From Fusobacteriaceae bacterium (GTDB taxonomy: Bacteria; Fusobacteriota; Fusobacteriia; Fusobacteriales; Fusobacteriaceae), in assembly GCA_017984315.1 (NCBI GenBank), contig JAGNZR010000001.1, forward strand, positions 34,783 through 98,782: a stretch of 64,000 nt of DNA. Direction: 5' to 3'. Of the stretch, positions 37,933 through 48,164 are shown piece by piece. Position numbers and translations under genes: made by a program. The notes under the pieces were generated by a model that searched no databases, was not told the origin of the DNA, and was given only the letters and a program-made list of their open reading frames with translations. Each line of letters begins with the position of its first letter. Within the stretch, counting starts at the first letter, position 1.

Positions 37933-38501
37933 TTCACTATCTTTATGTCTTTTCTTTACAAAGTATTGCAATATCAGTATATTTTTTACAAATAGTTCTA
38001 GTGTATATCTTTAATTTCGTATAGTTTTTAGATTTTTTTACCCGTTCCAGTACCAGTTCCAACTAAAACTTATGTTGTTATTATTCTTATTAGATTATAA
38101 GCATTAATATATTTGCTTACTCTTTTAAATTATTTTCTTCTAAGTTATCAATCTTTTCTTTTTTTTCTATCTCTATATTTATAAAGCCCATTCTACACAA
38201 AAAAATTACAAGAGATAAAATAGATATTATTAGTATCTCCAGAAAACATATCCAAATTTTTCAATACATGTTCATGTAAATTGATATCTCTATACCTATA
38301 TCTAAATAGGCCAATTGCCCAATTATAAAATTTTTTTATAATTGTTACTCCTGATACTTTTTTTACAATCTCTATATAATCCTTTTTATTATTTTATTAA
38401 AATTATTCCAATCGTTCAATTTTTTTAATACCAAAAGTTTAGATTCTTAACTATACAAAAGATGATTTATTTAACACATGTACAAGAAAAAAGATAGTCT
38501 A
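37933..38501. other. Left end of element B, noncoding
   Basis: About 570 bp without a gene. At 38041-38060 lies a tandem GTTCCA repeat (CCCGTTCCAG, then CCAGTTCC), 118 bp from the core, matching element C. The rest is AT-rich DNA in which I see nothing else. Confidence 0.5.
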
Positions 38502-39023
38502 CTATCGAACTAGGTCCATCAGCGACTTTTCTCCTTTCCCAATCTTTGATACTCTTTTGTACTCTTGTATGCTTTTCAACAAATCATCTATGTTAGAGAA
38601 ATAACTATACACAAAATCATAACTTTTAACAGAATCATATTTAAGTTCACTTTTGCAGTATTCACTTGGTTTATGAAATTTTGACTTCTTAAATTTATCA
38701 TACTTTCCTTCGTTAATAATTATAAGCATCTCTATCTCTGGAGCAGTTATGATGTTTATTACCTCAACTTTATCTTTATATGCTTTACTCAATTTGAAGT
38801 TTTCTCTCCTTGAATCTAATATTCTAACTACTGATATTTTCTGACTAAACTCCTTTTTCAAGTATCTATCTTCAAAAGTTTTTGCACTGCGACACCGAAT
38901 TATTTCGCCCTCTAACAACATTGTAGTGTCAAACACAAGTTTATCACTTTCCAAAAGTCGGTCCATAATCGCTTGCTCAGCGTTTCCTTCACAAATACAG
39001 GCAACATATCCTTCTAAAGTCAT
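38502..39023 (-). CDS. TOPRIM-like partner of the retron-associated ATPase
   Basis: A 173-residue protein. 'ACICEGNAEQAIMDRLLESDKLVF' near the N-terminus has the Glu-rich turn of TOPRIM-like nucleases, 'VVRILDSRRENF' could hold the acidic metal site, and 'ITAPEIEMLIIINEGKYDKFKK' follows. It begins inside the ATPase gene stop (4-bp overlap), so the two are translationally coupled. OLD/PARIS/retron-type defence modules often pair an ATPase with such a nuclease; whether this one cuts nucleic acid is unknown. The family assignment is from motif impression only. Confidence 0.5.
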   Translation of the reverse strand: MTLEGYVACICEGNAEQAIMDRLLESDKLVFDTTMLLEGEIIRCRSAKTFEDRYLKKEFSQKISVVRILDSRRENFKLSKAYKDKVEVINIITAPEIEMLIIINEGKYDKFKKSKFHKPSEYCKSELKYDSVKSYDFVYSYFSNIDDLLKSIQEYKRVSKIGKGEKSLMDLVR

Positions 39024-40198
39024 TTTTCTCCTCCATATTCAACAACAACTCTTTTTAAGTCCATGTATGCTTCATATGCAGGAACTGTTCCATGTAAATA
39101 TCCACTTTGGTAAACTTCACTTTTCTTAATATCATTTCTACATAGTATTCTTGAAAGGTTATCAACTTCTATCCCCTCATGATTTCGAATAATAAAAATA
39201 TTATCATTTCGTTCAAACTCATCTAACAATTCAGGATAATGTGTGGAAAATATAATTACAGCACCTTTCTTATTAACCTTTTTACTCATAAAAAATCTGA
39301 TTAGTGTTGAAACAATTTCTTTGTTAAAATGATTCTCTAATTCATCAATTATCAAATAACCACCTTCATCTAATACTCTCATTGCATTAACAAATACGTT
39401 GATTCCTTTAATCGTTCCTGATGATAAATACTTAGCTAATTCCATAGGTGAATACAGCAAAATTTCTTCTTTTGCATTAAATTTCAACCTGATTTCAAGC
39501 TTTTCATCGTTCACATTTAAATTAGTACGTAGATATTCTATACTTGGATCTAAGAATTTAATGAGTTCTTTAGGAAAATCTCCCAATATTCTTATTAGAT
39601 TTACATTTGTCCAATCTAAAGTATCCATATAATTTACCTTCAATCCATATTTTTTATTTAATGCAATAACAATACTTATATCTTCTGGTAAAAACTCTTC
39701 GTTTTTATCCCTAATTTGTGATATATCATTTTCTTCAAATTTGAATAAATTTTTAATTGTATCTACAGATTTCACCGATTTGCTCCACATTGATTCCTCA
39801 TCAATTATAAACTTATCTTCGCCATCAATAGAGTTTTTAGATTTTATTATAGTTGTTTTAAGTTTATTCACCGATTCTTTTCCTACACAAAAGTAAGATT
39901 CTACTACAATCTTCTCATTCTTTTTTAGTCCTTTTAAAATTTCTCTACTTTCTATATTGTTAATTGATTGATTATTTAACAACTGTATAACAAAAGATAT
40001 CACTTTCAATGTAGTAGTTTTTCCTGATGCATTAATCCCAATCAAGGCTAACGCATTATTTGTTCTTATTTGAGGAGATATTTCATATAACATTTCATTT
40101 TTCCCACTACGGACTCTTTGAATAGCTGTAAAATCTACTTCTAGAACATCTTTAAATAATTTAAGACCTTCAACTTTTATTTTCAATATCCTCATCAT
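39020..40198 (-). CDS. AAA/ABC-type ATPase (OLD/Septu-like), retron effector candidate
   Basis: A 392-residue ATPase. Walker A 'GINASGKTT' is at residues 54-62; Walker B 'YLIIDELENHF' at about 281-291 with Asp-Glu at 285-286; a switch His in 'FSTHYPELLDEF' at about 318-325. The N-terminus 'RILKIKVEGLKLFKDVLEVDF' matches AAA15/AAA21 (RecF/SMC-like) ATPases used in OLD, Septu (PtuA) and type I retron systems. Two tandem ATGs (40198, 40195) follow GAGGAG. It is separated from the RT gene by a hairpin terminator, so it may have its own promoter. Confidence 0.8.
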   Translation of the reverse strand: MMRILKIKVEGLKLFKDVLEVDFTAIQRVRSGKNEMLYEISPQIRTNNALALIGINASGKTTTLKVISFVIQLLNNQSINNIESREILKGLKKNEKIVVESYFCVGKESVNKLKTTIIKSKNSIDGEDKFIIDEESMWSKSVKSVDTIKNLFKFEENDISQIRDKNEEFLPEDISIVIALNKKYGLKVNYMDTLDWTNVNLIRILGDFPKELIKFLDPSIEYLRTNLNVNDEKLEIRLKFNAKEEILLYSPMELAKYLSSGTIKGINVFVNAMRVLDEGGYLIIDELENHFNKEIVSTLIRFFMSKKVNKKGAVIIFSTHYPELLDEFERNDNIFIIRNHEGIEVDNLSRILCRNDIKKSEVYQSGYLHGTVPAYEAYMDLKRVVVEYGGEK

Positions 40199-40332: not shown

Positions 40333-41277
40333 TCATCTTTGTACTTTAGCACTACTTATTCTACCAATTTCTTTGTACTTTTCTGGTTCAATACTTCTAG
40401 CTGCTTGTATTTGTCCCTGTAAAGTATATATTTTTTTCAAGTCAACTTTATCAATAGCTTCTACATCACAAAGGTTTTTTATATCTTGAAAATTATCATA
40501 AATTTTCTTTTGCAAATTATTTGGAACCTTTAATTTGTTATCTGGCATCAAAATCGTTCCTGTAATTGGCGCAGGGATATCTTTGCCATAATACTTAACT
40601 TTTTTATACTTAGGTCTATGACCATACTTTCTCAATCGTATATCCGCTTCTCGTTTTAATAAATTTACATTAAAAGGATTTTCTGCTGAAAAAGTCAAAT
40701 CATCTACGTATACCGTAAATATACATTTATTTTCACAAGCAACTTCATACAACTCAAAAAACATCGCCTCATATGCATAAAATGCTATTAATTGACTTGT
40801 TGGACACCCTGTCGGAATACCCCCTTCTAAGCATACAAGATCAGTACAAAACCCTGCAATATCTCCAGCCATCAACATCTTATCTTTAAAAAATCTAAAT
40901 ACATATTCTCTATTACAATTATCATAAAAATTTTTTATATCCATCGTTAAAACATAATGAGACATAATATGCGCTTTACCATTATCAATATAGCATTTCC
41001 CTTTCTCACCCGATATTAACCAATCTGGTCTCTTAACATATTGTATAAGTTGAAGTAAACGTTTCTGAACGATTTTCAATCTTTGATTAGGTGCAGTTAT
41101 TTTTCTCTTATCGCTGTTATCCTTTTTATAGATTTCGAAACAATGATATTTAACACTATCACGTAAAGTATTAAATTCAGAGTCTGAAATATCCAACAAG
41201 GAGCATATCTTTTTTTTCGATTGGCATTTATATAGTGCACATTGATTAATTTCGTACCTATATTTAGGATTCTTCAT
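40333..41277 (-). CDS. Retron-type reverse transcriptase
   Basis: A 314-residue RT. Residues 99-103 'NGKAH' sit where retron RTs carry the NAxxH motif, just before 'YVLTMDIKNFYDN' (catalytic Asp at 113). 'GCPTSQ' is at 157-162, the active-site 'YVDDLTFSA' at 190-198, and 'PITGTIL' (237-243) corresponds to the retron VTG motif. No maturase or endonuclease domain follows, which argues against a group II intron. Retron RTs make branched msDNA from an adjacent ncRNA. It starts directly after the XRE gene stop and is followed by a terminator and an ATPase/TOPRIM-like pair. Retron identity is likely but the ncRNA is unproven. Confidence 0.85.
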   Translation of the reverse strand: MKNPKYRYEINQCALYKCQSKKKICSLLDISDSEFNTLRDSVKYHCFEIYKKDNSDKRKITAPNQRLKIVQKRLLQLIQYVKRPDWLISGEKGKCYIDNGKAHIMSHYVLTMDIKNFYDNCNREYVFRFFKDKMLMAGDIAGFCTDLVCLEGGIPTGCPTSQLIAFYAYEAMFFELYEVACENKCIFTVYVDDLTFSAENPFNVNLLKREADIRLRKYGHRPKYKKVKYYGKDIPAPITGTILMPDNKLKVPNNLQKKIYDNFQDIKNLCDVEAIDKVDLKKIYTLQGQIQAARSIEPEKYKEIGRISSAKVQR

Positions 41278-41568
41278 CTACTCAACACCTTTTGACATAC
41301 CTTTAATCAATCTCATCATCATATTCCTTACAAAAGTCTCTCCTTTATTATCTTTCTTAGCATCATCGTAGTCTTCTGATAACAATATCAATGATGATAA
41401 TTTTATGCCATAGATTTTTGAATACTTTTCAAGTAATTCGAGTGATGGCTTTTTTTTGTTATTTTCAATTTCAGATAAATAGCTTTTAGATATCTCGAGT
41501 AGCTCACTCATCTCAGTTGCTTTTAGACCATATATTGCTCTAGTTCTTTTTAAAACATCACCAATCAT
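41278..41568 (-). CDS. XRE-family HTH protein upstream of the RT
   Basis: A 96-residue protein with a Cro/CI-type HTH over residues 1-60 ('TRAIYGLKATEMSELLEISKSYLSEIENNKKKPSLELLEKYSKIYG') and a charged C-terminal helix. Its stop is immediately next to the RT start, so the two are co-translated. It may regulate the cassette or sense msDNA; neither is shown. Good SD (GGAG) precedes ATG at 41568. Confidence 0.85.
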   Translation of the reverse strand: MIGDVLKRTRAIYGLKATEMSELLEISKSYLSEIENNKKKPSLELLEKYSKIYGIKLSSLILLSEDYDDAKKDNKGETFVRNMMMRLIKGMSKGVE

Positions 41569-41618
41569 TAGCTACTCCTTTCATATATTATCAACTAATT
41601 AAATTAGTAAAATTCAAA

Positions 41619-41897
41619 ATTAGATAGGCTTTCTAATCCATCACTCTAACGAAACCACTGCATAAGGCGTTCTACTATTTGTATAACCAACCATAAGAAC
41701 TCTAATCCTTTGAACAAAATCTTAAAGATATTTTTTCTAAGTTTATTAGTTCTTTGTGCAGTTTTAAGAGGTGTTTTTTGACCGTTCTGTAAGGACAGCT
41801 TGTTTTTCATTTTTTCATCTCCTTTGAGAGGTTCTAATGCTATCTTGAACCCCTTTCCCTTAAAAGAGACAGGTGCATACAGAACAGCCTATCTAAT
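41619..41897 (-). repeat. Long-range 12-bp inverted repeat flanking the small ORF
   Basis: ATTAGATAGGCT at 41619-41630 and its exact complement AGCCTATCTAAT at 41886-41897 enclose 255 bp. In RNA this would close a large domain, as a1/a2 arms do in retron msr-msd RNA. A second pair, GTTCTGTA (41784-41791) and TACAGAAC (41878-41885), nests inside. Confidence 0.6.
41646..41810 (-). CDS. Small 54-residue basic/amphipathic protein in retron leader
   Basis: ATG at 41810 lies 8 nt after AGGAG (41819-41823). The product has a basic N-terminal half ('MKNKLSLQNGQKTPLKTAQR') and a hydrophobic-aromatic helix near the C-terminus ('FKILFKGLEFLWLVIQ' then 'RLMQWFR'). The SD, length and amphipathic pattern argue for a real peptide, but it sits inside the region closed by a long inverted repeat, so it could also be chance within an ncRNA. 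Not similar to anything I recognise. Confidence 0.4.
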   Translation of the reverse strand: MKNKLSLQNGQKTPLKTAQRTNKLRKNIFKILFKGLEFLWLVIQIVERLMQWFR

Positions 41898-42066
41898 CCA
41901 TTGAGCAACGCTGGAGTTCCCTTTCCAGCGTTGCTATGGCACGGCGTGCTTCGGGTCGTTCGGAACATGCGCGCTCCATAAAGTAGAGTATTAAAACTCC
42001 TCAAGTGCAAAGCACTCCATTTTGTGGGAATAGACCTTAATATACTATGTATATTATTTGCTGTTA
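41880..42066 (-). ncRNA. Candidate structured RNA (possible retron msr-msd)
   Basis: This segment is markedly GC-rich against its surroundings and folds into successive hairpins. The strongest has 12-bp perfect arms AGCAACGCTGGA (41904-41915) and TCCAGCGTTGCT (41924-41935) with an 8-nt loop. AGTGC-N3-GCACT (42004-42016), GCAC-N3-GTGC near 41940 and AATATAC-N3-GTATATT (42039-42055) are others. A near-consensus promoter lies just upstream on the same strand as the RT. A branching G and a1/a2 arms are not assigned with certainty. Confidence 0.5.
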
Positions 42067-42071
42067 CATAT

Positions 42072-42100
42072 ACTATAATATACTAATTTTTTTATGTCAA
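42072..42100 (-). promoter_or_regulatory. Strong promoter of the retron leader
   Basis: On the minus strand TTGACA (42100-42095), 17-bp spacer, TATAGT (42077-42072). Transcription would start near 42065 and run through the hairpins, small ORF, XRE gene and RT gene. Confidence 0.75.
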
Positions 42101-42419
42101 CTATTTTTTTTCGCTATTAGAGAATTTTATTTTATTTTCCAATAACTTAGACTAAGCAAAAGCAGTTCCATGTCAGTCTGTTTAAAAATAAAAACCTCAC
42201 TACTTCCATTGTATATGATATAAATTCATGCATTTTGAATTTTAATTTTCAACTGTTTTTATGCTATCTTTATATATGTGCCTCTAATTATACCGAACAT
42301 GATAACTCTCATCTTCACTACTTAATGTTCTAAATTGTGATGTTTCAATAGGATATTTTATAGAGTATAGTGTAATCTATCTTCCAATCTTAATCTTTTT
42401 CAATCTTCCTTTTTAAATC
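42101..42419. other. Intergenic region between relaxase gene and retron cassette
   Basis: About 320 bp of AT-rich DNA. I see no gene, RNA or terminator that I can support. Confidence 0.4.
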
Positions 42420-48142: not shown

Positions 48143-48164
48143 CCCGTTCCAGTCCCAGTTCCGG
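48143..48164. repeat. Tandem repeat, candidate arm site of element C
   Basis: CCCGTTCCAG and CCAGTTCC, 12-bp period, almost identical in sequence and position to 38041-38060 in element B. Confidence 0.5.

Follow-up and report, generated by a model that had tools for sequence, protein, structure and literature searches.

A type VI retron whose template RNA may double as the gating leader of a small, probably toxic ORF

The minus strand of the window, which is the whole 64,000-nucleotide stretch of DNA that was analysed, carries a type VI retron that, by analogy with other retrons, is probably anti-phage. As the best explanation of its architecture, and one we hold to be reasonably likely, we propose that the template RNA of this retron doubles as the gating leader of a small toxin ORF. 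Computation supports four components of this proposal, namely the homology and covariation of the RNA, the sequestration of the Shine-Dalgarno (SD) sequence of the ORF, a long-distance complementarity across the ORF, and the coding status of the ORF. The ncRNA class is already known; the part that merits following up is the control, both translational and long-distance, that is conserved for the small ORF.

The retron genes and the structured RNA upstream of them

The reverse transcriptase (RT; 40333-41277, minus strand) was matched by the PADLOC profile RT_VI with an E-value of 2.7e-86, compared to 2e-36 for the next-best retron class. RTs of the retron clade are recognized by the motifs YxDD, NAxxH, and VTG, which occur in the window as YVDD, NGxxH (N-x-x-x-H), and ITG, and the YVDD, the Asn-His pair, and the T-G were invariant in the RT alignment. 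In a sequence comparison with the PDB, the best relatives were all retron RTs. The XRE/HTH protein encoded next to the RT (41278-41568, minus strand) was matched by HTH_VI (E 4.5e-31), and the type VI set is completed by a small auxiliary ORF of 54 aa (41646-41810, minus strand) that is conserved across homologs. The gene set at 40333-41810 thus has the composition described for type VI retrons, which consist of an RT, a DNA-binding protein, and a small auxiliary protein (PMC8541194). When the locus at 40333-42065 was compared with type VI retrons in the classification of Mestre et al. 2020 (via PMC8541194) and in PADLOC (RT_VI/HTH_VI), the parts were the same, including the structured RNA upstream, and no difference in parts was found.

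RT relatives were collected from Clostridia genomes (ten), plasmid records (24), and phage records (16). The preliminary description had placed a folded RNA upstream of the small ORF and the XRE gene and had considered its position away from the RT unusual. The position is correct, but it is the rule in type VI, as the order of structured RNA, small ORF, XRE gene, and RT gene was found in every complete homolog, that is, in every examined locus with enough upstream sequence. On an Enterococcus durans plasmid (L030), the type VI XRE gene is annotated, and the RT gene and the small ORF are present without annotation. A scan of viral contigs with the RT as query yielded no relatives, and plasmids searched at the DNA level with the leader as query yielded nothing.

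The RNA had been described as a GC-rich folded segment in AT-rich DNA, at 41880-42066, and as a candidate msr-msd. The GC content in 150-nt windows is indeed 0.47-0.51, compared to about 0.25-0.30 in the flanking DNA, and the individual features were recovered as reported: a perfect 12-bp inverted repeat with arms at 41904-41915 and 41924-41935 and a loop of 8 nt, an AGTGC/GCACT hairpin at 42004-42016, and a TTGACA-N17-TATAGT promoter on the minus strand (42100-42072) that has 11 of 12 consensus bases and is the top promoter match within 4 kb. The minus-strand RNA of the segment folded with -76.9 kcal/mol, compared to -57.5 kcal/mol for shuffled sequences (z -4.5), and surpassed 200 of 200 dinucleotide shuffles.

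A covariance model (R1), built from nine homologous Clostridia loci with the window excluded, matched positions 41873-42065 of the minus strand over its full length with 120.3 bits (E 5.2e-35). This was the sole match of the model, both within the window and genome-wide, and it provided improved bounds for the segment. Functional sequence extends beyond 41873 up to position 41810, where the small ORF starts. The leaders of the nine Clostridia loci can be aligned with the window along their entire length. The segment is present in all homologous RT loci that extend far enough upstream to be examined for it (9/9); its absence there would have spoken against the msr-msd reading. R1 also matched the type VI loci of S. 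aureus, S. haemolyticus, and E. casseliflavus plasmids (2e-11 to 5e-8); the equivalent segments of Aeromonas plasmid and Klebsiella phage loci were not found in the R1 search. An unrelated RNA family, which would have spoken against the msr-msd reading, did not emerge from Rfam, as there was no match to the segment at the gathering score and no credible family at relaxed thresholds.

In the homolog alignment, 93.6% of the cells were paired, compared to 83% in shuffled and 38-54% in slid controls. Covariation of the stems was strong, with changes on both sides in 25 of 53 pairs versus 12.2 in shuffled and 3-9 in slid controls; these counts stem from related sequences and are not independent events, yet the slid controls retain this relatedness and nevertheless drop to 3-9. 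The segment is a conserved structured ncRNA on the same strand as the RT operon. As the RT belongs to RT_VI and the closest solved structures are those of retron RTs, the msr-msd reading is further supported. We judge 41873-42065 to be a real type VI retron ncRNA, and its reading as an msr-msd candidate to be essentially right.

The ncRNA begins with a putative a1 (AACAGC, 42060-42065), which pairs with 41883-41888 in the leader fold. It is followed by the 5' hairpin P1 (TAATATAC/GTATATTA, 42038-42056; helix 2), in which 5 of 6 pairs show both-side changes among the homologs, and by the msr hairpins 1 (AGTGC-TTT-GCACT, 42003-42018; helix 3) and 2 (GAGGAGT..ACTCT, 41985-42002; helix 4), both with 100% of the cells paired and with compensatory changes in 3 of 6 and 2 of 7 pairs, respectively. 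The msd hairpin A (41936-41980) was predicted by single-sequence folding in the window and in all homologs, and the msd hairpin B (41904-41935; helix 5), which is the perfect 12-bp hairpin, has 5 of 10 pairs compensatory in homologs. The putative a2 region (GCTGTT / CTGTA, 41878-41888), whose CTGT is invariant in homologs, pairs with a1 in folds of the leader by itself. This a1:a2 helix (helix 1) comprises 5-9 bp with 89.7% of the cells paired, and its pairing probability was 0.72 in the leader alone and 0 in longer transcripts. As a1:a2 is short and both-side change was seen in one pair only, the hairpins are more firmly supported than the predicted canonical retron fold. A helix GGTCTAATCC/GGATTAGA within the ncRNA that appeared in some folds was rejected, as it is not general and is broken in L004, L005, L007, and L010.

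Two pairings around the small ORF

In all loci for which upstream sequence was available, the small ORF occupied the same position. Its dN/dS is 0.10-0.31 among related homologs, with differences mostly at third positions, and it is therefore a real gene under purifying selection. The product is cationic, with a strongly basic N-terminal half and an amphipathic C-terminal helix, and by analogy it is a probable small cationic amphipathic toxin. It had no match in Pfam, PADLOC, and NCBIfam, and its homolog from a Klebsiella phage belongs to a PHROG of unknown function.

The first pairing is a hairpin at 41819-41869 (minus strand), in which an anti-SD strand located 3' of the putative a2 pairs with the AAAGGAG of the small ORF (TCTCTTT with AAAGGAG) around an inner stem (GGGGTTC/GAACCTC). 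In these two helices (helices 6 and 7), 9 of 15 pairs are compensatory in homologs. The probability of the SD being unpaired was 0.27 in the window and 0.01-0.38 in the nine Clostridia homologs, so that it is mostly paired. Sequestration was less uniform outside Clostridia, where L024 and L026 were predicted to be open. In the Aeromonas leader L019, a terminator-like hairpin with a T-run (GTTCGAAATATCTTCGAACTTTTTT) lies between the ncRNA and the small ORF, which suggests that some transcripts of this locus end before the toxin.

The second pairing spans the ORF. The 14-nt block GGATTAGATAGGCT (41886-41899, minus strand), adjoining the putative a2 on its 5' side, shows complementarity to the element AGCCTATCTAATTT (41617-41630, minus strand) in the 3' flank, located after the stop of the small ORF and before the start of the XRE gene. 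This long-distance helix was spotted by eye in three loci and tested afterwards; as an RNAduplex swap test with gapped energies was uninformative, with many short stems strung together, a limited-bulge helix test and covariation counts were used. In the Clostridia set, 98.4% of the cells were paired and 5 of 14 pairs were compensatory, which was reached by 0 of 500 shuffles; examples are GGCGGG/CCCGCC in L004, GATGGG/CCCATC in L005, and GATGAG/CTCATC in L010. The best leader/3'-flank helix lay at the same place, with differing sequences, in 18 of 21 loci, a count that includes near-duplicate loci such as L015/L016, and in L020, L024, and L027 the long-distance helix was not the top helix. It recurs in Staphylococcus, Enterococcus, Ligilactobacillus, and Aeromonas, as well as in Yersinia, Pasteurella, and Shewanella phage loci; plasmids of Bacilli and both plasmids and phages of proteobacteria are thus among the 18.

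Folding of the full leader-ORF-flank sequences resulted in a mean pairing probability of block and 3' flank of at least 0.81 in 16 of 18 loci, and the helix was absent from the predicted fold of L026. In the full transcript of the window, the long-range pairing was 0.92, compared to a mean of 0.01 and a maximum of 0.03 with shuffled 3' flanks, and in 14 loci the pairing probabilities were 0.89-0.99, compared to shuffled means of 0-0.35. Single-locus shuffle tests outside Clostridia were mostly not significant. Judged from the aligned sequences, the leader/3'-flank complementarity is conserved. A specific displacement of a1:a2 by the long-distance helix was dropped as an idea, as shuffling of the 3' flank did not prevent the loss of a1:a2 in the longer transcripts of most loci, and the thermodynamic folds revealed no clean switch between the two helices.

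A gated toxin mRNA and its alternatives

In the proposed mechanism, one transcript from the promoter at 42100-42072 would contain the retron RNA in its 5' part and encode the toxin in its 3' part. Two locks would act on this transcript: the local hairpin would hide the toxin SD, and the block of the retron RNA adjoining a2 would pair with the 3' flank of the ORF and thereby close the toxin mRNA in an inactive form. The conserved pairing that flanks the small ORF would thus probably keep the toxin silent. We infer from the architecture that the peptide is toxic, that the structures repress its synthesis, that msDNA is produced, and that the toxin is switched on in infection, for example when the block is processed or reverse-transcribed or when the XRE protein is released. 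Retron RTs start copying directly 5' of a2. As the block is located directly 5' of the putative a2, in the region where the RT would start, reverse transcription could alter the lock. A more tentative idea is that in type VI retrons the template segment next to a2 itself serves as the antitoxin element, locking the toxin mRNA through its pairing with the 3' flank of the ORF. Reverse transcription, or removal of the copied RNA by RNase H, would alter this pairing, so that toxin translation would report the state of reverse transcription. If this were true, the first DNA made would, by the logic of retron priming, match the sequence of the toxin 3' flank element.

Type I toxin mRNAs, such as those of hok/Sok and AapA/IsoA, also have their SD hidden by a local hairpin and a 5'-3' long-distance helix (PMC6733600). 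The small peptide, the local SD hairpin, and the mRNA-closing helix are shared with these systems, whereas the 5' partner is here the retron template RNA, no gene for an antisense RNA was identified, and the part of the antitoxin would be played by the retron RNA, the RT, or the XRE protein. By computation, the small-ORF mRNA has the type I features of SD sequestration and long-distance interaction, which we consider as a mechanism and not as a sign of membership.

In the retrons with solved structures, Ec86, Ec83, Ec67, Ec78, and Kva2, the RT is homologous and a hairpin-rich msr is likewise followed by long msd hairpins. Their effector is a larger protein or a domain fused to the RT, whereas the ncRNA described here apparently serves as leader for the mRNA of the effector. 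The testable model that results is an RNA-gated peptide toxin instead of a protein effector held by msDNA. In open full texts, which our literature check covered, we found no description of SD sequestration or long-distance pairing in type VI retrons, nor of their mode of action, and such control of the small ORF may be described elsewhere. The covariance model provides a means to find Gram-positive type VI retron ncRNAs, which were unmatched by Rfam here, and it may be of use for defence annotation and for tools that produce single-stranded DNA in cells.

The XRE protein could also be the principal regulator. The TTGACA of the promoter (42072-42100) was aligned in all nine Clostridia homologs, and just upstream of its -35 region lies the palindrome TTCTC-TAATA-GCGAA (42110-42124, minus strand; one mismatch between the arms), the best candidate for a predicted, probable XRE operator. 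TTCKC-N5-GCGAA has its only exact match in the window there, and 19 of 23 loci have a palindrome of the TTCGC-N5-GCGAA type just ahead of the promoter, in many of them perfect and longer. In a more conventional reading, the RNA would be an ordinary type VI ncRNA whose hairpins serve only RT binding and RNA processing, and control of the small ORF would lie with the XRE protein, acting as repressor of the promoter. The conserved operator-like palindrome and the invariable position of the XRE gene between the small ORF and the RT gene agree with this. However, it would leave unexplained the covarying SD-sequestering stem and the coevolving leader/3'-flank helix, each of which includes bases beyond the ncRNA core, and we consider this reading rather unlikely. 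In the gated-mRNA proposal, the operator probably belongs to the same promoter. In most Clostridia loci (L002-L010), the gap between the small ORF and the XRE gene contains a short hairpin AGTC-GTAA-GACT followed by TTTATATA before the XRE start, a possible second promoter or operator for XRE-RT.

The small ORF might instead encode a small accessory peptide that acts, for instance, as an adaptor for the RT or the membrane and whose dosage is tuned by the RNA structures. Its product matches no known toxin family, and the strongly basic character of its N-terminal half could allow it to bind nucleic acid. On the other hand, a double lock on translation is a typical feature of type I toxins (PMC6733600), and the cationic amphipathic helix is retained in all loci despite low sequence identity, which makes a mere accessory role improbable in our view. 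That the GC-rich hairpins are an oriT, a replication element of a mobile element, or a terminator has next to no credence, even though an integrated element has its relaxase and MobC genes nearby, as the homologs are found in many unrelated settings, invariably together with a type VI RT and with no link to a relaxase, as the covariation is of the RNA pairing type, and as Rfam yielded no match.

Genomic surroundings of the retron

As no second close copy of the retron was found in the family of the host or in 98 genomes searched at the phylum level, a horizontal acquisition fits. Near-identical direct repeats (CCCGTTCCAGT[A/C]CCAGTTCC) at 38041-38060 and 48143-48162, 10.1 kb apart, enclose the retron together with the relaxase, MobC, a helicase-like gene, an integrase, and a probable excisionase. 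Judged by sequence and arrangement, they are probably the att sites of an integrative mobilizable element on which the retron resides; relatives were searched for an unoccupied integration site, and none was found. Behind the RT gene on the same strand (38502-40198) lie the genes of an AAA_21 ATPase (PADLOC AbiLi, E 9e-35) and of a protein of 173 aa that has no family match. Both were set aside as retron effectors, as the genes downstream of the RT vary between homologs, and they look like a separate abortive-infection pair.
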